Shown here: positions 3,829 to 26,022 of the stretch, in pieces
How the letters are laid out: every line of letters starts with the position of its first letter
How positions within the stretch are numbered: position 1 is the first letter of the stretch
Notes under the pieces: generated by a model
Told to the model about the DNA's origin: nothing
Databases searched by the model: none
Seen by the model: the letters and a program-made list of their open reading frames with translations, nothing else
Origin: Arthrobacter silvisoli
Lineage (GTDB): Bacteria > Actinomycetota > Actinomycetes > Actinomycetales > Micrococcaceae
Length of the DNA: 64,000 nt
Assembly: GCF_003369445.1 (NCBI RefSeq)
Contig: NZ_QRCU01000036.1
Coordinates: forward strand, 1 to 64,000
Reading direction: 5' to 3'
Program-made: the position numbers and the translations under genes

Positions 3829-4989
3829 CTATCCTTCGCATGCGATCCCGTCCTTATCGCGGTCCAGCGCCGCCCGGTAGCCGGCCTGTCCCGCGTAGAT
3901 CGGGGCAGCTCCGGCGGCCCTGGCGGCTGCACAGTTGGCGTAATAGGCAACTGCCGGCGCTGGTGGCAAGGGGACCCTCGGAGCAGGACTCGGGGCCACA
4001 GCAGCCGGAGCGGGTACGGCCTTAACAGGCGCTGGCTTAGCTGTAGCAGGTGCAGTTACAGGCGCCTCTGGAGCTTTCTTGCTTGCTGCGGGCTGGCTGG
4101 AGCAGTTGCCCAGAATGGCGGCCATGGCGTCGTGCTCGGCCCGGGTAACCCAAAGCTTGTAGCGTGCCTTCACCGAAATCTGCCGGGCAACGTACTCGCA
4201 CCTGAAGCCCTTGTTCGGCGGCAGCCACGTGGCCGCGTCGCCGTCGCCCTTCTTGATGTTGGTCGGCCCGTCGGTTGCTTGGAGGTTCAGGGGGTCGTTG
4301 GCGAACGCTGTCCGCTGTTCCATGGTCAACTGCTGGGCGCCCTTCTGCCAGGCGTCGCTGAGCGCAACAACGTGGTCGATCTGGACGGCGCTGCTGGTCG
4401 TGATCCCCCGCTGGAAGTTAATGGTGGTGCCCGTGTACGGGTCCGCCAGCGTGCCGGACCGCACCTTGCAGAGCACGCTGTTGGTGTATTTCACACCCGT
4501 GAGGTCGCGGTTGAGGATGTCATTCCGGGTGTCGCAACCGTTACGGTCAACATCTGCCCAGGCCTGTCCGAACAGCGCGCGGTCATATCCCGTCTTGGGC
4601 GCCCGTCCCTTGACGGGAAGGGAAGCCAACACCTCGAGTGCTTTGCTTGCGAACGCAGACTGCGTCTTCGGAGCCGTTGCCGTGCCGCCCCGTGCCGATA
4701 CCTTGGGTGTTTCAGGATCCAGGGGCTTGCTGGTCTCCGCCGAGGTCGGAGCGAACGACGGCGTCGGCGTGGCTTTGGCGGTTACGCTCGCTTCTGCCGT
4801 GACCGGGGCAAAAGTGCCATTCGATGGGGCCGATGCATCCCCAAGGCCACAGCCCGCCGTACCCACGATCATGAACAGCGCGGCAAGTCCTACAACGACG
4901 AGGGTGGAAGATCGGGGTCTGCGCGGTAACCTCGGCCCTGGCTCCGGCGCACTATCCACTGACCTACTGGGGGCCGGATTCTTCGACAT
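3829..4989 (-). CDS. Secreted HNH-family (DUF1524-type) nuclease with C-terminal excalibur domain
   Basis: 386 residues from the ATG at 4989, preceded by AAGGAAAAG. A basic stretch and hydrophobic helix end in a lipobox-like IVGTAGC, so export is likely. The central domain (YDRALFGQAWADVDRNGCDT, IDHVVALSDAWQKGA, FANDPLNLQATDG, NIKKGDGDAATWLPPN) is the GmrSD/DUF1524-type HNH nuclease found in many secreted actinobacterial proteins; the D-H pair of IDHV and the downstream N and K residues form the metal site. A Pro/Ala linker leads to an excalibur domain (YYANCAAARAAGAAPIY ... LDRDKDGIACEG). It ends 44 bases before the PASTA/excalibur gene, probably in one operon. Likely an extracellular DNase; the biological target is unknown. 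Confidence 0.8.
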   Translation of the reverse strand: MSKNPAPSRSVDSAPEPGPRLPRRPRSSTLVVVGLAALFMIVGTAGCGLGDASAPSNGTFAPVTAEASVTAKATPTPSFAPTSAETSKPLDPETPKVSARGGTATAPKTQSAFASKALEVLASLPVKGRAPKTGYDRALFGQAWADVDRNGCDTRNDILNRDLTGVKYTNSVLCKVRSGTLADPYTGTTINFQRGITTSSAVQIDHVVALSDAWQKGAQQLTMEQRTAFANDPLNLQATDGPTNIKKGDGDAATWLPPNKGFRCEYVARQISVKARYKLWVTRAEHDAMAAILGNCSSQPAASKKAPEAPVTAPATAKPAPVKAVPAPAAVAPSPAPRVPLPPAPAVAYYANCAAARAAGAAPIYAGQAGYRAALDRDKDGIACEG

Positions 4990-5052
4990 TCTTTTCCTTG
5001 TTTTCAAAGTCCCCGGCAATTAGCCGGTCTCTCGTTGTTCGACAATTGCGGC

Positions 5053-5089
5053 CGCCGTCGTGCACCGGACCTGCCGGCGCACGACGGCG
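5053..5089. terminator. Inverted repeat downstream of the small membrane protein gene
   Basis: GCCGTCGTGC at 5054-5063 pairs with GCACGACGGC at 5079-5088. There is no T-run on either side, so termination is uncertain. It lies between the small membrane protein gene and the HNH nuclease gene. Confidence 0.35.
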
Positions 5090-5106
5090 ACCCTCCCCCC
5101 AGGAAC

Positions 5107-5139
5107 GGCGGCGTCTAACTCCCCGCGTTAGACGCCGCC
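5107..5139 (-). terminator. 13-bp perfect hairpin spanning the stop codon of the small membrane protein
   Basis: GGCGGCGTCTAAC (5107-5119) pairs perfectly with GTTAGACGCCGCC (5127-5139) around a 7-base loop. The TAG stop of the minus-strand gene lies inside the stem. No U-tract follows, so it may end transcription weakly or protect the 3' end of the message. Confidence 0.4.
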
Positions 5140-5426
5140 GAGATCATGATGAACAGGACCACAACGATCCCCAGTGCGGAACAGATGGTGTCCACCCAGC
5201 CAAGGACCTTGCCCAGTGTTGCCGAATGATGGAGGGCTTCGGCCTTCCGTGCGTTGGAAATCGCCAACGGGCCGAAGACAATTCCCAGGAAGAAGAATCC
5301 GATGGCCCCGAAAATGATCGACTTTTCCTTGAACTTGCTTCCCTGGAAGTGCTCCAGCGAATTGTTCTGCTGCACGTTCGGGTAATTCGGGTACTGGTAG
5401 GACTGGCTGAAGTTCGACTGGGACAT
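5115..5426 (-). CDS. Small two-helix membrane protein (DUF4190-like)
   Basis: 103 residues, starting at the ATG at 5426 with GAAAGG upstream. The first ~45 residues are polar and rich in Gln, Asn, Tyr and Pro (SQSNFSQSYQYPNYPNVQQN). Two hydrophobic helices follow (IIFGAIGFFFLGIVFG and ICSALGIVVVLFIMISA), separated by a short basic loop (NARKAEALHH). This layout is that of DUF4190-type proteins, whose function is unknown. It is divergent from sigK, sharing a 255-bp intergenic region. Confidence 0.65.
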   Translation of the reverse strand: MSQSNFSQSYQYPNYPNVQQNNSLEHFQGSKFKEKSIIFGAIGFFFLGIVFGPLAISNARKAEALHHSATLGKVLGWVDTICSALGIVVVLFIMISAASNAGS

Positions 5427-5612
5427 TCTGAGACCTTTCGACGACGGTGTCGGTGATTTTCGGGAGACTCCCGCGCCGCATTCTCGGTCCGCCGTGCATC
5501 CCCCGAAACGAAGATACGCAGCCATTCCCAGCCACGGCGCAAACTGGGCAAATCTTGGGTAAATCCTGCTGCGATGCTGTGTCCCACGATGCTCACGGCC
5601 AAGAAAGCGCAC

Positions 5613-5639
5613 CCGTCCAAAGCCCCCGCGGCACCGAAT
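5613..5639 (+). promoter_or_regulatory. SigK-type promoter of sigK (autoregulation)
   Basis: CCGTCC at 5613-5618 and CCGAAT at 5634-5639 are separated by 15 bases. The mycobacterial SigK consensus is CCATCC and CCGAAT with a spacing of about 16, so only one base of the -35 box differs. The predicted start of transcription is about 35 bases upstream of the GTG start codon of sigK. The same architecture with the same 15-base spacer occurs upstream of the DUF4383 gene. Confidence 0.6.
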
Positions 5640-5681
5640 GCTTTGTGTTCACAGACAGAAACAGGGCAGGAGGTGGGTTGC

Positions 5682-6362
5682 GTGACAACGGTGCAGCTGG
5701 GACGCCTATGCTGGAACGCAATGGACAATCCCCATGCTCCCGAAACGGCGGAGACGGCCGCCGGGCCTGCTTCAGGCGCGCCCGGCGCCGTAACGTCCGG
5801 TGCCACGGCGCCAGAGCTGAACGCCCAGCTGGGGGCCCTCCTCGGGCAGATCGCCGACGGCGACCGGGATGCCTTCGCGGACTTCTACCGGCTCACCTCA
5901 CGCCGGGTCTTCGGCATGGCGCGGCGGGTCCTGGTGGACTTGGAGCTCAGCGAGGACGCCACCCAGGAAGTCTTCCTGCAGGTCTGGCAGGGCGCCGCAA
6001 GCTTCAACGCCGCGGCCGGGAGCCCGCTGGCCTGGCTGATGACCATCGCGCACCGCAGGGCCGTGGACAAGGTCCGCTCCGCGCAGGCAGCCACGGACCG
6101 CGAAGCCAGGTACGGCGCTGACAGCCAGGAGATCGACCACGACTCCGTGTCCGACGAAGTGGGCAGCCGCCTCGACGCCGAAGCCGTGGTCCGGTGCCTG
6201 GAGACCCTGACCGAGACGCAACAGGAATCGGTGCGGCTGGCGTACTACGGAGGCCTGAGCTACCGGGAAGTCGCCGAGAAACTCAATTCCGCGCTACCGA
6301 CCATCAAATCCCGGATCCGCGATGGACTGATCCGCCTGAAGACCTGTTTGGAGGTGAGTTGA
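5682..6362 (+). CDS. sigK: ECF sigma factor, SigK family
   Basis: 226 residues from a GTG at 5682, chosen because a perfect AGGAGGT lies seven bases upstream. Sigma region 2 (GDRDAFADFYRLTSRRVFGM ... EDATQEVFLQVWQGAASFN ... AWLMTIAHRRAVDKVR) and region 4 (LTETQQESVRLAYYGGLSY, then LPTIKSRIRDGLIRLK) are complete. The next gene, one base after the stop, is its anti-sigma factor, the standard sigK-rskA arrangement of Actinobacteria. In mycobacteria SigK responds to redox conditions sensed by RskA and controls secreted and membrane proteins. A SigK-type promoter precedes the gene, so it probably activates itself. Confidence 0.9.
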   Translation: MTTVQLGRLCWNAMDNPHAPETAETAAGPASGAPGAVTSGATAPELNAQLGALLGQIADGDRDAFADFYRLTSRRVFGMARRVLVDLELSEDATQEVFLQVWQGAASFNAAAGSPLAWLMTIAHRRAVDKVRSAQAATDREARYGADSQEIDHDSVSDEVGSRLDAEAVVRCLETLTETQQESVRLAYYGGLSYREVAEKLNSALPTIKSRIRDGLIRLKTCLEVS

Positions 6363-6363
6363 G

Positions 6364-7233
6364 ATGAACCGCATGGACACGAACGACGGCGGCACGCAGC
6401 CCCGCGGTTTCGCCGCCGATATTGCCACCGACCTGAAGGCCGGCCGCGCCGTCGAACTGGCGGAGATCTACGCCCTGGACGCCGTCAGCGACGACGAACG
6501 CGCCGCCATCGACGCCTACATCTCCACCGCCCCGCAAGCAGAACGCAACGCTTTCAACGACCGCGTCCGCCAGGCCCGCGAAACCCTCGCCCTGGCCTTC
6601 ACCGCAGAGGAAGATCCGCCCGCCGGACTGCTCGAGCGCACGCTGGCGCAACTGCCGGCGCAAGCGCCAGCACAAACTCCGGCACAGCTGCCGGAAGCGG
6701 CGCCGTCGGAAGCTGCGCCGGAAGCCGGCCTCCCGGCGTCGGGCGATGAACTGGCAGCCGCGCGGCAAAAGCGTGAGGCACGACGCCGGCCTTCCGCCGT
6801 CCGGAACTGGCTGATCGCCGCCGCGGCGGCCATTGTGCTCGCCGTGGGCGGGGTGGGAATCGGCAGCTATGTGGCGTCCCAGAACGACCCCGTCAAGCAG
6901 ATCCTGCAGGCACAGGACGTGCACGAAGCGACGGCAAACGTGACCGGCGGCGGCACAGTGCTGCTGGCGATCTCGGCCTCGAAGGACGCCGTGGTGGTGC
7001 GGATGAAGGACGTGCCGCCGCCGCCCGCCGGCAAGGTCTACCAGATGTGGCTGATCCCCAAGAACGGCTCGGCGCCGGTCTCGCAGGGAACCATGGACGC
7101 CGAAGCGCTATCCAAACCGGCCGTGGTGAGCGGCATCAGCGCCGGCTCCTCCCTGGGCATCACGGTGGAACCCGTGGGCGGCTCGGCGTCGCCAACGTTC
7201 CCGACCGTCGCCGCCGCAAAACTGGATTCGTAG
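6364..7233 (+). CDS. rskA: Anti-sigma-K factor RskA
   Basis: 289 residues, ATG one base after the sigK stop with GGAGGTGAG as ribosome site. An N-terminal cytoplasmic zinc-less anti-sigma domain (VELAEIYALDAVSDDERAAI, residues ~30-80) binds SigK. An Ala/Pro/Gln-rich linker (~95-130) leads to one transmembrane helix (about 148-170) and an extracytoplasmic RskA C-terminal domain (GKVYQMWLIPKNGSAPVSQG and GSSLGITVEPVGGS are the family signatures). Regulated proteolysis of RskA releases SigK in known systems. Confidence 0.9.
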   Translation: MNRMDTNDGGTQPRGFAADIATDLKAGRAVELAEIYALDAVSDDERAAIDAYISTAPQAERNAFNDRVRQARETLALAFTAEEDPPAGLLERTLAQLPAQAPAQTPAQLPEAAPSEAAPEAGLPASGDELAAARQKREARRRPSAVRNWLIAAAAAIVLAVGGVGIGSYVASQNDPVKQILQAQDVHEATANVTGGGTVLLAISASKDAVVVRMKDVPPPPAGKVYQMWLIPKNGSAPVSQGTMDAEALSKPAVVSGISAGSSLGITVEPVGGSASPTFPTVAAAKLDS

Positions 7234-17911: not shown

Positions 17912-18698
17912 GTGCGGCCGAGCGCCTACCAGGGACGATCTTCTGTGCGTTCGAGCCTATCCAGGAGCACGGTGACGTGGCCCCAGGGCAATTGCTCAAC
18001 AGGCTGTTGCGCTATTGAGGTCCCCGGCCAAGATTTGGCAAGAGTAGTCATAATATTGGAGATTCCGGGGCGAAAACCCCTTCATCTTAGGGAACTGGGA
18101 ACATAGATCGTCGGCCAAATGCCTTGTGACGTTGCTGCCTCATCCTTGGCGTCCCTGTTCTGTCATCACTCCTCAAGGACCAAGCAGTCACAATGGCAGG
18201 CGTACTTAAGTCCTCGCAAACGCCCGTAATCGGGACAATGGCCACCGCGCAACAACAATGGGACCGCAGACGAGAGAACCCGCACTGATCATGCAACCGG
18301 CCGCCCCGTGGGTAGCGCCCAAAGAGTTCATCGAGTTCCAGGGATATGACCCCAATCCCGGGCTATTCAACAAAACCTCTACGGTAATCGTGAGCCCTGC
18401 CGACAACGCACGAATAGCCGCTTCCCAGGCATTCACCCTCAAGCCTTGAACCAGCCCGCCGAAGGCCGTGACCTAAAGGGAGCCAGCACGTTGTAGTGGC
18501 CTGGCATCCCCACACCTGAGGGTTTGAAGGCCCCACCCTGCGATGGGGTCGTCAGCTGCCGTACCCCGCATCACCTATGTGGCGACGACGAACGATATGG
18601 ATGTGTCCCGGGCAGGCATACTTTTCCCAGGGAGGGTCTGCCGTGCGCGTAGAACTGCTGGGCGACGGACTGTTTACGCTCCGCTGGCATGCCGAGCC
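17912..18698. other. 787-bp stretch without a supported gene
   Basis: GC content falls and the codon pattern of the neighbours disappears. The only frames are a 63-codon one at 18258-18449 and an antisense-type one at 18577-18801, both without family resemblance. A weak hairpin (CCCCA/TGGGG arms near 18532-18552) lies downstream of the deformylase-like gene but lacks a T-run. This stretch is the left border of the biosynthetic locus. Confidence 0.5.
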
Positions 18699-19322
18699 TT
18701 ACCAGCAAGATGACTTGTCTGAGCGGGCTGTCGTGATGGTTGATTTGAGGAAAGCGTCAACGCCGCGGACGCTCCAGACAGACCTGAGCGCTATTTCATG
18801 AACGATGCCGCCTTCAACACAGTCTTCGAAGATCGTCCTGCCTTGAAGGTGCGCAATCTCGTGTTGGACAATGCGTGCTGGCCAACCAGTGAAGGTCGAT
18901 TCCTGTGCGATGCCTTGTTGGTCCAGCCAGGACACATCAATGGAGAGGTGCCGGCGGACTGCAGCCTGGTACCCGGGTGTTGAGAGACAACCTTCGAAGT
19001 GTGTAGCAGTTTCTTTGCTTCGGTGGGTGATACAGGGGTTGACCATGATCGTCAGGTCAACCCTTTTCAGGTGTTTGTTTTGGAGGTGTGCGTCGTCCCG
19101 CACCGTATGGTCTTCGATGACAGCGACATTCGACGAGACACCGATCTGCGGCGCCGCGATTCCCACGGCCCCTGTCTGCCTCATGACCGTGGTCATCGTT
19201 TCGAAGAGGTCCCGGAATCTTCCTGCCCGGAGGTCCCGCGGCGGGATTTCGTTCACCGGCAAGCGGAGTGCGCTGTCTCCACAAAAAACCAGAGCATGTT
19301 GTGTTTCACTCATTGCTGCCAT
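18699..19322 (-). CDS. Peptide-deformylase-like metallohydrolase of the peptide biosynthetic operon
   Basis: 207 residues. Motif 1 reads AVGIAAPQIG (residues ~52-61), motif 2 EGCLS at 110-114 with the metal ligand Cys112, and motif 3 HEIAH at 154-158. The two histidines and catalytic glutamate are present, but the aspartate of the usual HEXDH is alanine and the first glycine of motif 1 is alanine. The start overlaps the end of the ATP-grasp gene, making it the last gene of the P450 operon. A housekeeping deformylase would not be expected here. It may remove the formyl group from the ribosomal peptide so that its N-terminus can be ligated, or protect the host if the product inhibits deformylase. 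Both roles are inference. Confidence 0.75.
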   Translation of the reverse strand: MAAMSETQHALVFCGDSALRLPVNEIPPRDLRAGRFRDLFETMTTVMRQTGAVGIAAPQIGVSSNVAVIEDHTVRDDAHLQNKHLKRVDLTIMVNPCITHRSKETATHFEGCLSTPGYQAAVRRHLSIDVSWLDQQGIAQESTFTGWPARIVQHEIAHLQGRTIFEDCVEGGIVHEIALRSVWSVRGVDAFLKSTITTARSDKSSCW

Positions 19323-20655
19323 CAGTGGTCCACCCCCTTGTTACGCAGTCGGACTTAAGGTTAGCGAGCAAGACGAAAGCGTCGTCACGAGACCTGGCGA
19401 CGGTGTTGAGCATGACATGCATGACGTCGGGTGCGCCGCCGAGCGGCGGGGTCAATGCGACCGTTCCTTCGCCGGTCGTGCGGTTGTATCCGTGCGGAAC
19501 CTGGCTGAGCAGGGTCAGGAAATCGGCATATTTGACCTCGTCGCGCAGGAGCTCGATTTCGGTCTGCAAGACGTGCCTGTCTCCATGGATGCCGGGCAGG
19601 TTTCGCATGACTTCGTACATGTGCGTCGAGCCTGTGTAGCGGCAGTTGACTTCGGTTATGCGCATCTTCCCGGAATCGGTCACGATCCAGTCGACGCTTA
19701 CGTGCCCTCGGTAACCTAGCCCCTGGTAGATGCTTGCTAATTGATGAGAGCAGGTTTGCATTCTGCCCCGCAGCTGTGCGGGGATCTGGTCATCGGCAGG
19801 GTTGATTTCAACGGCGAGGCCCCTGTCTCGATAGACGAGTTCCCCGACGCTTGGCTCAGGTAGGGCGCCGTCACCGACCGAATACTCGGCGTAGAAAGTC
19901 CGGTGGTTTCCGACGAATTCTTCGACCACTACTGGGTACCGGTCTTCGTACGACATCCAGGACCAGTGGGAATCCCAGAAAGCGTTCGCTGCCTCAGGCG
20001 TGGTTGCCTGGTAGACCCTTACAGCTCCAGACTCCTCTGGGACCGCCGTGGATTCCGGCAAATGAACGAGGTAGTTGCCGCCTCCGCCTCCGCCGTGAGA
20101 CCGCTTTGCCATGTAGGCACCGTCCCGGCTGAGGAGTTTCTGGCTGAATTCTTTGGCTTCTTCGGCATCCCGTAACACTCTTCCGTGAGGGATTGGAAGG
20201 CCGGATGCTGCAGCTAACGCGCGAAAGTTTCCTTTGCTGTTGGCAAGCTCGTATCCGTTCTGTTGGAAGAAGGCGAACCCGGGGACCGCGCGATTCAAAC
20301 CTAGTTGATGAGCGAATTCCGAAACCCCGGGCGTCATCCAGAGCGCATCGACCGTGTCCGGTTTCCGGTTCCTGAGAGTTCGGAGAACGTCGTTGATGAG
20401 CTCGGAGTCAACGATCGCGAGCTGATCGAACATCTTCCGTTCGTACCGGCCCTCGGGCATTACGCACACGTCGACGCTGTCCGTTGGCATCTCTTTCACC
20501 GCGAGGACGTGGTCAACAAATGCCGGGTCTGGAACGTCCATCAGTACAGCAACGTCACCGGGATTGAGAAACCAGAGGCCGTGTGCCGCATAGGACCGAG
20601 AATCAATCTTGCGCATGATGCTGGGATCAGAATCATTGCAGACGTAGATCTTCAT
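19306..20655 (-). CDS. PGM1-type ATP-grasp peptide ligase
   Basis: 449 residues, starting two bases after the amidinotransferase stop. An N-terminal pre-ATP-grasp domain (KIYVCNDSDPSIMRKIDS ... VPGFAFFQQNGYELANSKG) leads into the ATP-grasp fold: GAYMAKRSHGGGGGGNYLVH is a glycine-rich ATP loop, YPVVVEEFVGNHRTFYAEYS the lid, and MRITEVNCRYTGSTHMYEV carries the metal-binding E and N residues. The last motif and the order of domains match PGM1 of pheganomycin and the ligase of ketomemicin, which join an amidino amino acid to the N-terminus of a peptide. Coupling to an amidinotransferase gene supports the same chemistry. The actual acid and peptide partners are inferred. Confidence 0.78.
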   Translation of the reverse strand: MKIYVCNDSDPSIMRKIDSRSYAAHGLWFLNPGDVAVLMDVPDPAFVDHVLAVKEMPTDSVDVCVMPEGRYERKMFDQLAIVDSELINDVLRTLRNRKPDTVDALWMTPGVSEFAHQLGLNRAVPGFAFFQQNGYELANSKGNFRALAAASGLPIPHGRVLRDAEEAKEFSQKLLSRDGAYMAKRSHGGGGGGNYLVHLPESTAVPEESGAVRVYQATTPEAANAFWDSHWSWMSYEDRYPVVVEEFVGNHRTFYAEYSVGDGALPEPSVGELVYRDRGLAVEINPADDQIPAQLRGRMQTCSHQLASIYQGLGYRGHVSVDWIVTDSGKMRITEVNCRYTGSTHMYEVMRNLPGIHGDRHVLQTEIELLRDEVKYADFLTLLSQVPHGYNRTTGEGTVALTPPLGGAPDVMHVMLNTVARSRDDAFVLLANLKSDCVTRGWTTDGSNE

Positions 20656-20657
20656 GG

Positions 20658-21803
20658 TTAGTTCGCGAAGTCCTCAAGGAAGCTGTCCCGTACGGTGTCC
20701 AAGGTGAAGCAGTGGAACCCTCCACCAAAGAGCCGGCGGTGTCGGTGCTGGACGGGGGTTACTCCGAATCCCTCGGATTCGAGGAGCCGGATGAGTCCGG
20801 TGCAGTCTTTGTTGACGAGGACGTGGTCTGGTGAAATCGACAGGACGTTCAGGTCAATATAGGGGCTAGTCAGGACCAGATCGTTGGTGTTGTATTCAGG
20901 GAAGCTTCCTGCTTCGGGTTCTGGAGGGACGATGAACTTCCACTTGTTGAATGGGGCGGGGAGTTGTTCCTGGATGTCCGGGTGCCTGGCTAGGAAGACT
21001 CCAGGCTTCAGGGCCAGAAGCATGCTGTCGATGTGGTTGTCACTCAGTCGGTACACGCGGTGAACCCTATAGGCCGGGGAGAGATGCTGGACGAGCCATT
21101 CGTAGCCCAGTTGGTGGTTTTCATTTGCAACGTTCACGATGATGTCGCGTCCAAGCCGAATGCACTGGGCGCCGTCAAGCATCATTTCGAAACCTGCGTC
21201 AAAGGGTGAAGACTGAGGGTCTGAAATCGCCTCCGTGGGCCCGCCAAGCGAGGTTTCCAGGTCGCGGGCGTACGAAAGATCGAAGGAACGGTCTGTCATG
21301 ATCGGACGGGGCATGGTCGACCACTTCGCGCCGTCTTTGAAATAGTCGGTGAAGACCGGCTGCATGAGACGGGTCTCGAGATATCTGGACCGGATGGCCG
21401 GAGGCGTTTCGATGATCTCATTGCCGACGATGATCGAGTTGTCCCTGATGTTCAACGCCGGCACAGGCGGTGCGGACCAGCCAAACCCGGCAATGGGGTC
21501 GGGATTTTCAGGCAGGTCCATTGGCCGGTGGACCTTAACACCGAATCCCGCGATGGTCTCGGCCAGGGTCTCAACGTCTTCTACGAGCTCTTCGGTGTAC
21601 TGCTTGGAGATGTTCCAGGATCGGCTGTTCTTCCGTGCATCAGCGTCGCTTTGCGCCAGCCGGGGGTAGGCCCAATCGGACTTGTACAGGTTTTCGTGGA
21701 AGAAGACATCGAATGATAGCTCCCGGTCGTGCGAGACGTAGTTCTTTGCCGTTCCGACGATGATTTCCTTAAGCGGGGCCCATTCATTGTGGCTATTTAC
21801 CAC
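20658..21803 (-). CDS. Amidinotransferase (StrB1/CyrA/glycine amidinotransferase family)
   Basis: 381 residues from a GTG at 21803, preceded by AAAGGAG; it overlaps the P450 stop by 11 bases. The family catalytic triad is visible: Asp210 in MLDGAQCIRLGRDI, His257 in SDNHIDSMLL, and the nucleophile Cys365 in FGGGFHCFTLDT. The opening NSHNEWAPLKEIIVGTA is also standard. The enzyme moves an amidino group from arginine to an amine, giving a guanidine and ornithine. Next to a PGM1-type ligase it probably makes the guanidino amino acid that the ligase uses, or amidinates the peptide N-terminus. Confidence 0.88.
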   Translation of the reverse strand: MVNSHNEWAPLKEIIVGTAKNYVSHDRELSFDVFFHENLYKSDWAYPRLAQSDADARKNSRSWNISKQYTEELVEDVETLAETIAGFGVKVHRPMDLPENPDPIAGFGWSAPPVPALNIRDNSIIVGNEIIETPPAIRSRYLETRLMQPVFTDYFKDGAKWSTMPRPIMTDRSFDLSYARDLETSLGGPTEAISDPQSSPFDAGFEMMLDGAQCIRLGRDIIVNVANENHQLGYEWLVQHLSPAYRVHRVYRLSDNHIDSMLLALKPGVFLARHPDIQEQLPAPFNKWKFIVPPEPEAGSFPEYNTNDLVLTSPYIDLNVLSISPDHVLVNKDCTGLIRLLESEGFGVTPVQHRHRRLFGGGFHCFTLDTVRDSFLEDFAN

Positions 21804-22971
21804 GTTTGTCTCCTTTGAGAGTTGAAACGGTCATTAGCGTTGCGGTGTCGAGGTAGTCAGGGGTCAGGTGTGCGTAGAGCCCCGTCCACCGGTTTTCCGA
21901 GGCCAGCAGGGCGGCAACCCAATTGAGAGCGAGCTGGGCCCCTAGGCAGACGTGGGGTCCCCACGCGAATCCGAGATGATTGCTCTCCTGCCGGTCGGGG
22001 TCAAGGTCATCCGGGCGGGAAAAGATGCGGGGGTCACGGTTCGCGGCGGACAGCATCGTCACGACGCTCTGGCCTCGTCTGATCTGCCTTCCTTGGATTG
22101 TGTGGTCTTCCAGAGCAATGCGTGCCGTAGCCTGGGCGGGGCTGAGATACCGGACAATCTCGTTTGCCGATTGGATGAGGTTCGGTGAAGCTGCGGCCCG
22201 GGCGAATGCTTCCGGCTCGGTTTCAGCCAGTTGGATCAGGGCGGCGCCGAGGGCGAACGATGTTGAAAATCCCGCGTTGTAGATCCCGCCCACGGTATTT
22301 CTCAGGTAGTTCGAGCCTTTCCGCTCAAGTTCGTCGCCCACGACAGGATCGTCAGCGAGGGTCGCCAGCATTCCTGCTTCGGGTGCATGCGAGAGCCAAG
22401 TCTCCACTTCCGCTCTCACCCAGTCGCCCGCTGTCCGGCCGGGGGGAAGGCGCTCCGGGTCGAGCCCGGCATCCATAGCCCGGCTGAGCGCAGTGGAAAT
22501 CGGGGTGTACGTTTCGGCGGGAACGGTTGGAGAACCGAGGACGTTCGCAACCATTTCGGCGACGGAAGGGGCCACACATTCTGCCATCAGATCAACCCTT
22601 GTCCCGCTGGCGGGTGCCGACATCCTGCTGATGAACGCCTCGACGGCTTCAATGGCGATGCCTTTGAGGTCCTGCTGGTGAAGGGCCTTCAGCATGCGCC
22701 GACGCAAGACCATCTGCGATGGCGGATCCTCGGTCTGGATACTTGTCGCAAGGTGCTCTTTAGAGCGGCCCAGGCGTCCGGGGTCGCGGGCGTACCGTTC
22801 GTTGTTCCTCAGGACTTCTTTGCAGTCTTCGTATCGAAACACCACCCACGACTGCATGTCGTCCTGCCACGTACAAGGATCGTTCTCCCGGAACCAAGCC
22901 TGAACGCCCAGACGGTCCCTGAAGTACTCCTCCGATAGTGGTGCAAAAACCCCTTGCGCCGCAACGTCCAT
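21793..22971 (-). CDS. Cytochrome P450, candidate peptide-crosslinking enzyme
   Basis: 392 residues, with GAGGGGG ahead of the ATG. The heme loop is FAWGPHVCLGAQ with Cys342 as ligand, and the K-helix ExxR is E271-R274. In the I-helix the oxygen-activating motif is NAGFSTS (232-238): the threonine stays, but the acidic residue before it is replaced by serine. It is the first large gene after the MLYDHIA minigene and is coupled to the amidinotransferase. P450s beside Met-x-Tyr-x-His minigenes in biarylitide clusters form a Tyr-His crosslink, and that is the proposed role here. A ferredoxin gene on the opposite strand probably supplies electrons. Confidence 0.85.
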   Translation of the reverse strand: MDVAAQGVFAPLSEEYFRDRLGVQAWFRENDPCTWQDDMQSWVVFRYEDCKEVLRNNERYARDPGRLGRSKEHLATSIQTEDPPSQMVLRRRMLKALHQQDLKGIAIEAVEAFISRMSAPASGTRVDLMAECVAPSVAEMVANVLGSPTVPAETYTPISTALSRAMDAGLDPERLPPGRTAGDWVRAEVETWLSHAPEAGMLATLADDPVVGDELERKGSNYLRNTVGGIYNAGFSTSFALGAALIQLAETEPEAFARAAASPNLIQSANEIVRYLSPAQATARIALEDHTIQGRQIRRGQSVVTMLSAANRDPRIFSRPDDLDPDRQESNHLGFAWGPHVCLGAQLALNWVAALLASENRWTGLYAHLTPDYLDTATLMTVSTLKGDKRGK

Positions 22972-23002
22972 CTATTCCCCCTCGTGATCTTTCGGAGCGC
23001 AC

Positions 23003-23042
23003 ACGTGGGGTGCCGCAATGCTTGCATCACGACACCCCACGT
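23003..23042 (-). promoter_or_regulatory. Hairpin between the minigene and the P450 gene
   Basis: ACGTGGGGTG and CACCCCACGT (23003-23012 and 23033-23042) form a perfect 10-bp stem. The loop contains a second small palindrome (ATGC TT GCAT). On the transcript it starts 11 bases after the minigene stop and ends before the P450 ribosome site. There is no U-run, so it is more likely an RNA-stabilising or attenuating element that sets the ratio of peptide to enzyme message, as in the mccA-mccB gap of microcin C operons. That role is inferred by analogy. Confidence 0.6.
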
Positions 23043-23053
23043 CGTTTTGGCGA

Positions 23054-23077
23054 TTACGCGATGTGGTCGTACAGCAT
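23054..23077 (-). CDS. Seven-codon minigene encoding MLYDHIA, candidate RiPP precursor
   Basis: ATG CTG TAC GAC CAC ATC GCG TAA reads MLYDHIA. A near-ideal Shine-Dalgarno sequence, AGGAGGGGG, begins 15 bases before the ATG, leaving nine bases after AGGAGG. This is the strongest ribosome site in the locus and has no other start codon to serve. The stop is followed by a hairpin and then the P450 gene 82 bases downstream. The Met-x-Tyr-x-His pattern equals that of biarylitide precursors such as MRYYH, whose Tyr3 and His5 are crosslinked by the adjacent P450. The extra Ile-Ala and the amidinotransferase, ligase and deformylase genes are not part of known biarylitide clusters. Confidence 0.7.
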   Translation of the reverse strand: MLYDHIA

Positions 23078-23083
23078 GCCGGT

Positions 23084-23092
23084 CCCCCTCCT
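23084..23092 (-). promoter_or_regulatory. Strong ribosome binding site of the MLYDHIA minigene
   Basis: AGGAGGGGG on the minus strand matches the 16S anti-Shine-Dalgarno over at least six bases. Its position decides the minigene start at 23077. Confidence 0.75.
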
Positions 23093-23323
23093 GCTAGCTC
23101 GGATCGTGCAAGAGAAAAAATACACATTTTAGGCGATAGTCACCACTCAAATCCGGCGTGTTTATTAAATAATTGGCATGACTTGCGGCTTTCACGATTT
23201 GGTGCTTTACTTCAATGTTTTCTTCCTAGTCACGAGGTTGAAAAAGTCAATATCTAAGCGCCAGCTGTTGGCTTCAGGATCATCCGAGAGCGACGGTAGT
23301 TCGACCGAAGGGATACTCCCGTA

Positions 23324-24580
23324 ATGGGTTTGCTTATAGATTTGCGCCCGCTTCGCGCGTCCAGGCGATTCTCTGTGTTGTGGAGCACCGGCGTGCTGAT
23401 GTCGGTAACAGGTCAGTTCCTGCAGGTCGCTCTGGCCTGGAAAATCTACGACATTACCCACTCACCGCTGATGGTTGGTCTGCTAGGTGTCGCCGTGGGG
23501 GTGCCGACCGTCATTTTCGGGCTTCTCGGCGGATCCTACGCTGATACAAGAAGACCCAAGGTCATTGGGCTAATCGGCTCGATCGGTCAATTTCTCGTTC
23601 TGCTGGCCGCGGCCGGCTGCTTCTTGGTTGTCGGGGATCCAACCGAGAGCACGGTATGGGTGATCTACCTCGTCGTGGTGCTCCAAATCACTTGCGGCAC
23701 CTTCTCCGCCCCGACGCGCCGGCCATACCTGCGGCATCTGTTAGGAAGAGAACTCCTGCCCTCAGCATCGAGCCTCTACATGCTGTCGATGCACATTGGA
23801 ATGATTCTCGGGCCCTTCCTCGGCGGTGTCCTTATCGGCACCGTAACACTGGGCGTTGTCCTGATCCTGGCCGCCGCCGCGGCTGGCGCCTATCTCCTGG
23901 CAGTGTTCTTCCTCCCCGATATCCCTGCTGGGCAAGTCGGAACCGGCGTCAAACACGCATTCATAGAAGGCCTTGTAGCCGTTGTCCGCTCGAAACCACT
24001 ACGCGGCGCCTTCCTGTTGGACCTTTGCGTGACCGTCATAGCCCTTCCCACCGCACTACTTCCGGCATTGAACGCGGAAATCCTCGGAGGAGGCCCCGCG
24101 GAATACGGTTTGCTGGTTGCAGGCATGTCCATTGGCGGACTCCTCGCCACACTTCTTTCGGGACCCATCACGTCTGCAAAACGGCCAGGCCACGTACTGG
24201 TCGTGGCGGCCGCAGCCTGGGTCGGGGCAATACTCTTGCTTGCCTGGGCTCCAAACTTCGCAACCGCCCTAACCGTCCTCGCGCTCGTCGGGGCACTCGA
24301 CACGGTCGCGATGACCAGCCAATCAATCATTCTCCAGATGGCCGTTCCGGATAACCTCCTCGGCCGCGTGTCGAGTTTTCAATCCGTAGCAGGAATGGCG
24401 GGCCCTCAACTGGGAAACATACGAGGAGGACTCCTTGGAACCTTGTTCGGCCCGAGTGCCGGAATAGCAGCAGGTGCCGCAGCCGGCCTCGTAGCCGTCG
24501 GATTCGCAGCCTGGACTCATCCAGACATCCGAAAGTTCGTAGTCTCCAAGGCCAAGGAAATCGAGGGTTCCAATGTCTAG
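23324..24580 (+). CDS. MFS transporter, probable exporter of the peptide product
   Basis: 418 residues with about 12 hydrophobic segments. The opening (LRPLRASRRFSVLWSTGVLM), the loop YADTRRPKVIGLIG corresponding to MFS motif A, and FSAPTRRPYLRHLLGRELLP are typical of the MFS_3/enterobactin-exporter-like group. It is divergent from the P450 operon across the 352-bp control region and is coupled to the ferredoxin gene. Export of the final product, and so self-protection, is the simplest role. Confidence 0.8.
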   Translation: MGLLIDLRPLRASRRFSVLWSTGVLMSVTGQFLQVALAWKIYDITHSPLMVGLLGVAVGVPTVIFGLLGGSYADTRRPKVIGLIGSIGQFLVLLAAAGCFLVVGDPTESTVWVIYLVVVLQITCGTFSAPTRRPYLRHLLGRELLPSASSLYMLSMHIGMILGPFLGGVLIGTVTLGVVLILAAAAAGAYLLAVFFLPDIPAGQVGTGVKHAFIEGLVAVVRSKPLRGAFLLDLCVTVIALPTALLPALNAEILGGGPAEYGLLVAGMSIGGLLATLLSGPITSAKRPGHVLVVAAAAWVGAILLLAWAPNFATALTVLALVGALDTVAMTSQSIILQMAVPDNLLGRVSSFQSVAGMAGPQLGNIRGGLLGTLFGPSAGIAAGAAAGLVAVGFAAWTHPDIRKFVVSKAKEIEGSNV

Positions 24581-24887
24581 CGTCACGTTCCGGCCCCGGA
24601 ACGGAGACCCTCTTACTGTCCCCGTTACCGGCCCAACGACAGTGATGAAGCTAGCCTTGGAACATCTGATTCCCGGCATCATCGGACGATGCGGAGGCTA
24701 TGCGAGCTGCGGTACGTGCCACGTATGGGTGGAAGCGGACATAGCGGGGTCCGTTACTCTCCCCGCGCCTGTTCTTGAAGCAGAAGTATTAGCCGGGGTT
24801 GATACGGAAGTCCGAGAGACAAGCCGCCTGGGATGTCAAATATCAGTTTCTCCGGAGTCCCCGACGCTTTCTTTCACCGTTCCGTGA
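24573..24887 (+). CDS. [2Fe-2S] ferredoxin, probable redox partner of the P450
   Basis: 104 residues; the ATG overlaps the MFS stop by eight bases. The cluster ligands are visible as RCGGYASCGTCHV (C-x5-C-x2-C) with the fourth cysteine in RLGCQIS near residue 87. This is the adrenodoxin/putidaredoxin type used by bacterial P450s. No ferredoxin reductase gene is present in the window, so a chromosomal reductase would be shared. Confidence 0.88.
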   Translation: MSSVTFRPRNGDPLTVPVTGPTTVMKLALEHLIPGIIGRCGGYASCGTCHVWVEADIAGSVTLPAPVLEAEVLAGVDTEVRETSRLGCQISVSPESPTLSFTVP

Positions 24888-26022
24888 TCGGCTGACTGTC
24901 CGGTCCCGGGAACCACACTCTCAGAATCGCCGCGACCCCAAAATGCAGTCAAGGAACAATTGATGACGCCCCGAATCAATGAGTCCTTCATGTTTCCCCA
25001 ATCGTCAGTTGAAAAGCCCGATCTTCCCAATCGACGAGGCATTCCCGCAAATCTGGGAGATTGGACACGCTAAGTCATGGGATCCCGTCGCATGGCGGTA
25101 TGTCAAGTCAACATTCCCAACGCCCAGATCCTGCCGGCTGATTGCAAACAAAAAGAAGCGCGCGATCCTTTGACTTGCAAACTTCATTTGTTTTTGCAAT
25201 CTCTGCCCGGATGAAGGTCGACACGCCCTGTTTCCGCATTTTAATGATGAGACGACTACTGGATGATCGAGACCCGCTGCAGCGGGCGAATTACTGGGTG
25301 CGAGCTGCCACCTGGGTTGAGCTGATGCGGGCGAATTCGAGGATGGAGAAACAGCCCGCGGCAGCCGGCGATGACCGGAACCATGGGATGGGATCAGGCC
25401 CGCAGCACCCGATCGGGCCCGCCCCCAAGTCGAAGAAGGATTCACCAACGGCGGACTCATAGGACATTGCCCGGCCCCTCAATGAGAAACCCGTCCCCGC
25501 GTTCCTTGACCCCTGATGCGACCCCAATATGAAGGACGAACATCTTCGGGTACACGCGCCCACACGCCGGCAACCGATCAGTTATTCCGTTCACGAACCC
25601 CGTACCAGGGCTGGGCAGTGGACGAGTAGGTCTCGTTGGGGAAATGAAGGCGTGGCCTCCTCTGCAACGCTTGATCGGTCGAGGCTTCGTCCCAGATCAC
25701 CGTCAGTTTCTTCTCGTCCCTGAAGTTTGAGAACCGCGATTGAGGTGCCCGGCGGCCCAGCGGGCGATCTCGAATTCCGGGTGGCGGGTGGCGTCGCCGA
25801 CGTCGAGCCACTCGCGTGCCAGTTCCACGCAACGGCGCAGGTGGCGAGCTCGTCGGAGTCAGGGCGGACGGGCTGCAGAAGGTGTCATTCCCTCAGAACA
25901 GCCGTTTGGTATACCATTTTGAGGAGAAGGTCCTTCCGTTTGCGCGCGCCCACCGGTGAGGACCGCTGACACGTATGCCAAGATCGTCCTGCCACCCCAG
26001 GACCGCGCACCTGGAGGACCGC
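24888..26022. other. 1.1-kb stretch without a convincing gene; right border of the biosynthetic locus
   Basis: Only short frames without family resemblance are present, among them 59 codons on the minus strand from the internal ATG near 25467 (MSYESAVGESFFDLGAG...). A 41-codon minus-strand frame at 25703-25828 (VELAREWLDVGDATRHPEFE and on) has coding-like composition and may be the tail of a lost gene. GC rises back to the genome level by about 25.9 kb. Confidence 0.45.
25703..25828 (-). pseudogene. Possible gene remnant
   Basis: A minus-strand frame with a GTG at 25828 reads VELAREWLDVGDATRHPEFE followed by IARWAAGHLNRGS. The composition is like a real helical protein, but the frame is closed by a stop upstream and has no ribosome site. 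It may be a fragment left by the event that brought in or trimmed the adjacent locus. Confidence 0.25.

Follow-up and report, generated by a model that had tools for sequence, protein, structure and literature searches.

The 64,000-nt stretch of Arthrobacter silvisoli DNA analyzed here (hereafter, the window) contains a seven-codon minigene, MLYDHIA, which likely encodes a complete precursor peptide. Comparison with related loci would place it in a branch of the biarylitides whose precursors are heptapeptides extended at the C-terminus, with the adjacent cytochrome P450 predicted to cross-link Tyr3 to His5. The P450s of this branch have likely lost a C-terminal clamp, and the peptide is likely capped at its N-terminus by an amidinotransferase and a peptide ligase. 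The preliminary description of this DNA had proposed an ultra-short RiPP precursor, a reading that is now supported at the level of sequence and fold.

The MLYDHIA minigene and its operon

The minigene occupies positions 23054..23077 on the minus strand, where the reverse complement reads ATG CTG TAC GAC CAC ATC GCG TAA. It is intergenic, lies below the usual length range of standard gene finders, and ends 82 nt before the start of the P450 gene (22971), which runs in the same direction. The Shine-Dalgarno sequence AGGAGGGGG is found at 23084..23092 on the minus strand, and the end of its AGGAGG core is 9 nt before the ATG. Direct reading, this ribosome site, recurrence in relatives, and simulations thus confirm what had been described: a MLYDHIA minigene next to a P450, upstream of and co-directional with the P450 operon (all on the minus strand), with a ribosome site at a good distance. 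The earlier account had left the strand unstated and had mentioned neither the ligase, amidinotransferase, deformylase, and hairpin nor the block to C-terminal extension in an ordinary biarylitide P450.

The minigene is followed on the minus strand by genes for the P450, the predicted Tyr3-His5 cross-linker (21793..22971), an amidinotransferase of the AGAT/StrB1 type (20658..21803), a PGM1-like ATP-grasp peptide ligase (19306..20655), and a peptide deformylase (18699..19322; Pfam PF01327, E 3.4e-36; motifs GIAAPQ, EGCLS, and HEIAH). These four genes overlap or almost abut their neighbours, as expected of a single operon. The amidinotransferase had no Pfam match at E 0.001 and was assigned from its GGGFHC motif (Cys365) and PDB matches to 1bwd (E 4.4e-45, inosamine-phosphate amidinotransferase type) and to human AGAT (glycine amidinotransferase) entries. 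The ligase carries a Pfam PreAtp-grasp domain and, as in PGM1-type RiPP clusters, resembles PGM1 of pheganomycin (3wvq; E 2.9e-46 over residues 1-402). To our knowledge, pheganomycin involves no biarylitide P450. According to PMC13417212, PGM1 couples non-protein amino acids to peptides made on the ribosome. Divergent from the operon, the plus strand encodes an MFS exporter (23324..24580; Pfam MFS_1/MFS_3), whose best NCBIfam match, EntS, fell under its cut-off, and a 2Fe-2S ferredoxin (24573..24887; Pfam Fer2, 24.8 bits against a cut-off of 21), which overlaps the end of the MFS gene by 8 nt and is likely the electron donor of the P450. Neither the deformylase nor the ferredoxin had a match at E 1e-5 in any other stretch that was fetched, a point against the main reading.

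Precursor length in related loci

Biarylitide precursors are described as having five residues, the last being the cross-linked aromatic residue 5 (PMC13417212, PMC12951456). The window resembles the known systems (bytA/bytO; P450Blt, myxarylin) in having an MxYxH minigene with aromatic residues 3 and 5 and a strong Shine-Dalgarno sequence beside its own P450 gene, but differs in adding Ile6 and a seventh residue. The precursor thus does not end at the predicted cross-linked residue, in the window or in three relatives. Literature searches, with the first biarylitide papers and a 126-P450 survey outside their scope, showed no C-terminally extended biarylitide precursor among the matches listed; table S1 of PMC13417212 could list one, its program allowing longer frames.

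A scan with the amidinotransferase returned 152 relatives, the best 80 loci of which were kept; a P450 of the window type (at least 150 bits to the window P450) was called in 27 of these 80, all of which have an amidinotransferase because they were fetched by that gene. Homologous P450 loci lacking an M-x-Y-x-H minigene, which would have spoken against the preliminary description, were sought among these 27 other loci, and every one carried an MxY(D/N)H minigene. In 23 of the 27 the extrapolated P450 start follows the minigene at a distance of 76-129 nt. The others, all with strong Shine-Dalgarno sequences, lie between the P450 and amidinotransferase genes (L002 and L005), about 1.7 kb from the P450 (L006), or about 9 kb from it (L007), the last of which counts against the main reading. 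Among the 53 loci without the P450 type there were three pattern matches (L058, L070, and L076). An AGGAGG-like site was absent from all three; in L058, a GGAG stands 12 nt upstream.

Pentapeptides account for 26 of the 27 minigenes, and the exception is MEYNHIT in Leifsonia virtsii (L002). To these, L083-L088 and L111-L119 were added from plasmids and from other genomes. Leaving out repeats (L082, with the P450 of L028; L102, with the P450 of L016; L103, from the genome of L019; and L089-L094), there were 42 P450-minigene pairs, 38 with pentapeptides and 4 with heptapeptides. Besides the window, heptapeptides occur in three distant relatives (L002 MEYNHIT, L111 MSYDHIS, and L119 MTYNHIV), giving the pattern M-x-Y-(D/N)-H-I-(A/T/S/V) in four loci; Tyr3, His5, and Ile6 are kept in all four, and positions 2 and 7 vary. 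The Ile-Ala extension noted earlier is therefore real and, as Ile-x, recurrent, being found in 4/4 loci with a Gly188 P450 (RufO numbering, below) and readable DNA.

Two other short frames were seen in the fetched loci. A pentapeptide MLYSE, with a non-aromatic residue 5, lies near Arg188 P450s in two Nocardia group genomes (L113, position 7890, plus strand; L114, 8685, minus strand; near-copies of each other), consistent with a remark on Nocardia ninae in PMC12951456. In L003 (9195-9233, plus strand) and L004 (6570-6608, plus strand), twelve-codon minigenes, MWDELNDVEHDT and MWDELDDVEHDT, with AAAGGAGG, sit between an amidinotransferase 67-69% identical to that of the window and a PGM1-like ligase. 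These two loci are without the P450 and without an MxYxH minigene, and by eye a GC-rich inverted repeat lies 3' of the twelve-codon frames; each resembles a further ultra-short precursor, served by the same two capping enzymes.

The P450 and the proposed C-terminal clamp

The relationship of the P450 to BytO, P450Blt, and RufO is indicated by fold comparison, in which the first nine entries were all P450Blt or RufO. The window enzyme is 27% identical to each of these two. By sequence, P450Blt and RufO (7e-42 to 2e-41) rank below its best PDB matches, 9jvj/9jv0 (E 8e-51), an order that counts against the main reading. In the RufO structure, residue 84, Arg188, and Arg231 hold the peptide amides and the C-terminal carboxylate, and His235 and Glu239 hold His5 (PMC12186263); residue 84 is Glu84 in that paper and Gln in the PDB chain of our mapping. 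The window P450 has Gly182 at Arg188, Gly228 at Arg231, Asn at His235, and Ser at Glu239. The use of Arg188 as a diagnostic position is our own, drawn from the RufO structure paper, and is not part of the published biarylitide definition.

At site 188, the 38 pentapeptide-linked P450s have Arg (37) or Lys (1), whereas all four heptapeptide-linked P450s have Gly. At site 231, Arg is found in 33/38 pentapeptide-linked enzymes and Ala or Gly in the remaining five, against Gly or Ala in 4/4 heptapeptide-linked ones; we rejected loss of Arg231 as a heptapeptide mark because of these five, so that only site 188 separates the groups. P450BytO (myxarylin) modified a peptide with one extra N-terminal residue but not a C-terminally extended one, and a model of this enzyme predicts a clash for a C-terminal extension (PMC12951456). 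Given this block and the RufO contacts, the heptapeptide P450s appear to carry, in Gly188, the change expected for passage of a tail.

After two heptapeptides were known, we forecast that a set of 24 P450s (P0002-P0025), mostly Gly188, should have extended precursors; at site 188 the set has Gly in 22, Ala in 1, and Thr in 1 (P0017, Nocardia blacklockiae). Both loci that could be reached agreed with the forecast: MSYDHIS in L111 (P450 = P0020) and MTYNHIV in L119 (P450 = P0013). The six Arg/Lys188 loci from the same searches (L112-L117, including the near-copies L113 and L114) all had pentapeptides, a converse that had been left unstated beforehand. In a P450 tree of 49 rows (21 pentapeptide-linked, including RufO and P450Blt, 4 heptapeptide-linked, and 24 unlinked), one branch with 100/100 support divided the 4 heptapeptide-linked and 21 unlinked enzymes from the 21 pentapeptide-linked and 3 unlinked ones; the L002 P450 has a long branch and an unsure place. 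With all four heptapeptide P450s on one side of one branch, the covariation of site 188 with precursor length may reflect a single ancestral event, though it persists among enzymes that share only 33-43% identity.

These comparisons bear on the alternative that the system is an ordinary biarylitide, in which Ile-Ala is a disposable follower trimmed before the P450 acts on MLYDH, the true substrate. Nearly all of the wider family has MxY(D/N)H pentapeptides (26/27 loci), and the window amidinotransferase shares 62-69% identity with its counterparts in 30 pentapeptide loci, as would suit such an origin. We nevertheless regard trimming as improbable: Ile6 is kept in all four heptapeptides, P450s that would have to bind the free His5 carboxylate are without the Arg188 clamp, and no protease was found among the six genes scanned.

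A RufO-like activity, nitrating or hydroxylating Tyr3 to give a building block in place of a cross-linked peptide, deserves consideration because RufO is among the nearest structures by fold. RufO also has a minigene-type substrate (MRYLH), and it nitrates Tyr3 although it belongs to the same P450 family (PMC12186263), a fact that counts against the main reading. Such a role is nonetheless quite unlikely here. RufO keeps Arg188, Arg231, His235, and Glu239, unlike the window P450; neither a nitric oxide synthase nor an NRPS gene was detected among the six genes scanned; and the ligase and exporter suggest a peptide product.

The hairpin behind the minigene

An 18-bp hairpin lies between the minigene and the P450 gene (23003..23042, minus strand), with no U-run after it. 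The minigene and hairpin together folded with a z of -3.72 (0/200 shuffles as stable), and the 60 nt after the minigene stop with a z of -5.11. No terminator-like site was found behind the window minigene, and Rfam gave no RNA family in 22800-23500 up to E 1. Across 39 loci (the 42 pairs minus L083, L113, and L114; several Streptomyces loci among them are closely related and hence not independent), 37 had an uninterrupted stem of 8 bp or longer within 60 nt behind the minigene stop, with a median of 13 bp. Elsewhere, stems of this length were found in 10/39 stretches in front of the minigene, 8/39 behind the P450, 1/33 behind the amidinotransferase, 1/34 behind the ligase, and 30/194 random stretches. 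The shuffle z was below -2 in 34/39 loci, and in 32/39 with new shuffles; for L119 it was only -1.56. This recurrence suggests a shared control element. For the biarylitides, the predicted fold of one bytA-bytO spacer is mentioned in a supplement legend (PMC8708641).

The arrangement of a seven-codon precursor gene and then a hairpin before the first enzyme gene resembles that of mccA in microcin C, where termination induced by the ribosome between mccA and mccB gives an excess of a short mRNA, and the seven-codon frame goes through many rounds of translation prior to release (PMC6495379). The present hairpin differs in being without a U-run, and no MccB-type adenylating enzyme of the microcin C kind was found among the six genes scanned. 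From this likeness, the hairpin may be used as at mccA-mccB.

The same likeness could also be taken to mean that the minigene is purely regulatory, translation of seven codons before the hairpin tuning P450 expression while the peptide is not a substrate; the hairpin behind 37 of 39 minigenes would fit this. We give such a role little chance, since positions 2 and 7 vary but Tyr3 and His5 do not, and since in L002, L005, L086, and L112 the P450 gene comes first and the minigene after it, whereas a leader of that gene would have to precede it.

Gene content of heptapeptide and pentapeptide loci

The P450, amidinotransferase, ligase, and MFS genes are found together in three of the four heptapeptide loci (the window, L002, and L119; the MFS gene of L002 was called by Pfam only). 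The fourth, L111, has no amidinotransferase, ligase, or MFS gene in its 16 kb, and the missing amidinotransferase and ligase count against the main reading. Divergent from its MSYDHIS-P450 pair, L111 encodes a free-standing AMP-binding enzyme and an oxygenase of the PhyH family that contains a WHQA motif (4209-7068, minus strand). The WHQA motif presumably marks a halogenase-like protein.

Among 277 clusters in PMC13417212, 47 have Pgm1 and Asp4, so the combination of MxYDH and Pgm1 is already published; that paper discusses one cluster with an amidinotransferase, whose role there its authors left unclear. The window shares Asp4 and the PGM1-like ligase with these hybrids. An amidinotransferase is present in 30/38 pentapeptide loci of our set, 26 of these 30 having been fetched by that gene. 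In contrast to the heptapeptide loci (0/4 for each), pentapeptide loci often have an Asp/Asn beta-hydroxylase (25/38), a second ATP-grasp enzyme of the L-amino-acid-ligase type (27/38), and an aminoglycoside-phosphotransferase-like (APH-like) gene (27/38), counts that include some short loci (L083 is only 4 kb).

Distribution of the cluster

The P450 was found at E 1e-40 in 3/396 genomes sampled from the order, in 3/16 and 5/150 genomes from the genera of L019 and L004, and in 0/8 and 1/221 of two further genome samples; the amidinotransferase was found at E 1e-130 in 6/394 genomes from the class and 1/28 from the genus of L002. In the family, the P450 occurred in 1/295 sampled genomes, its own. 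Together with a G+C content of about 58-60% across 18000-25999 against 67-72% in the flanks, this rarity suggests horizontal arrival of the cluster. Plasmids yielded 28 records matching the P450, all below 60% identity, with 25 of the 28 listed at 26-36%; the five fetched plasmid loci had pentapeptide minigenes. Four of these are MxYDH clusters on Streptomyces plasmids (L084, L085, L087, and L088), one typed conjugative, and the fifth (L086), from a Bacillus arachidis plasmid and with transposase genes in the fetched region, carries an MNYNH minigene behind the P450 (9210, plus strand). Viral contigs gave two amidinotransferase relatives (37%) and no MxY(D/N)H minigene 5-8 codons long.

A Shine-Dalgarno sequence followed by ATG, MxY(D/N)H, and, after no more than three further codons, a stop is found once in the window and in none of 150 simulations by first-order Markov models of the window, with the same outcome for the loosened pattern MxYxH. 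Of 396 sampled genomes of the order, one matched the heptapeptide pattern GGAGGN{3,12}ATGNNNTAYRAYCAYATHDCNTRA, and only at this minigene; the backwards control matched none. Frames so short are common, yet a chance open frame can be rejected on these counts and on the minigenes of the relatives (27/27, and L111 and L119).

Proposed pathway and significance

On the preferred reading, in which the P450 staples a heptapeptide precursor, the hairpin and the short frame would together raise the yield of peptide over that of enzyme, as at mccA-mccB. The ferredoxin would pass electrons to the P450, which would join Tyr3 to His5 with the Ile6-Ala7 tail passing out at the position that, in pentapeptide enzymes, binds the C-terminal carboxylate. 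Removal of fMet-Leu would then fall to the deformylase and a host aminopeptidase; action of the cluster deformylase after release is plausible because a peptide of seven residues would not reach beyond the ribosome tunnel. Since both an amidinotransferase and a ligase are present, a guanidino acid is predicted on the new N-terminus, made by the former and attached by the latter, and the MFS protein would export the product.

A more far-reaching picture can be drawn, which we rate as less likely than not. Here, a P450 lineage with an opened C-terminal wall would staple Tyr-(Asp/Asn)-His within a ribosomal peptide of greater length, the Ile-x tail of which stays in the product, doing by gene what the second ATP-grasp ligase does by enzyme in pentapeptide clusters; the amidinotransferase and PGM1-like ligase would add a guanidino-acyl cap at the other end, and a hairpin switch would set peptide over enzyme.

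Judged from sequence and fold, the window minigene likely represents a heptapeptide sister branch of the biarylitides, with a precursor two residues longer than the five-residue ones described. For genome mining, Gly in place of Arg at RufO site 188 foretold a longer precursor in both checkable cases, and the small operon makes the fate of biarylitides after tailoring testable. P450BytO, the one biarylitide P450 for which a report of an extension test was found, took the N-terminal and not the C-terminal extension (PMC12951456); if the present lineage accepts a C-terminal tail, it would provide a stapling enzyme open at both ends, of use in the production of cyclic peptides.
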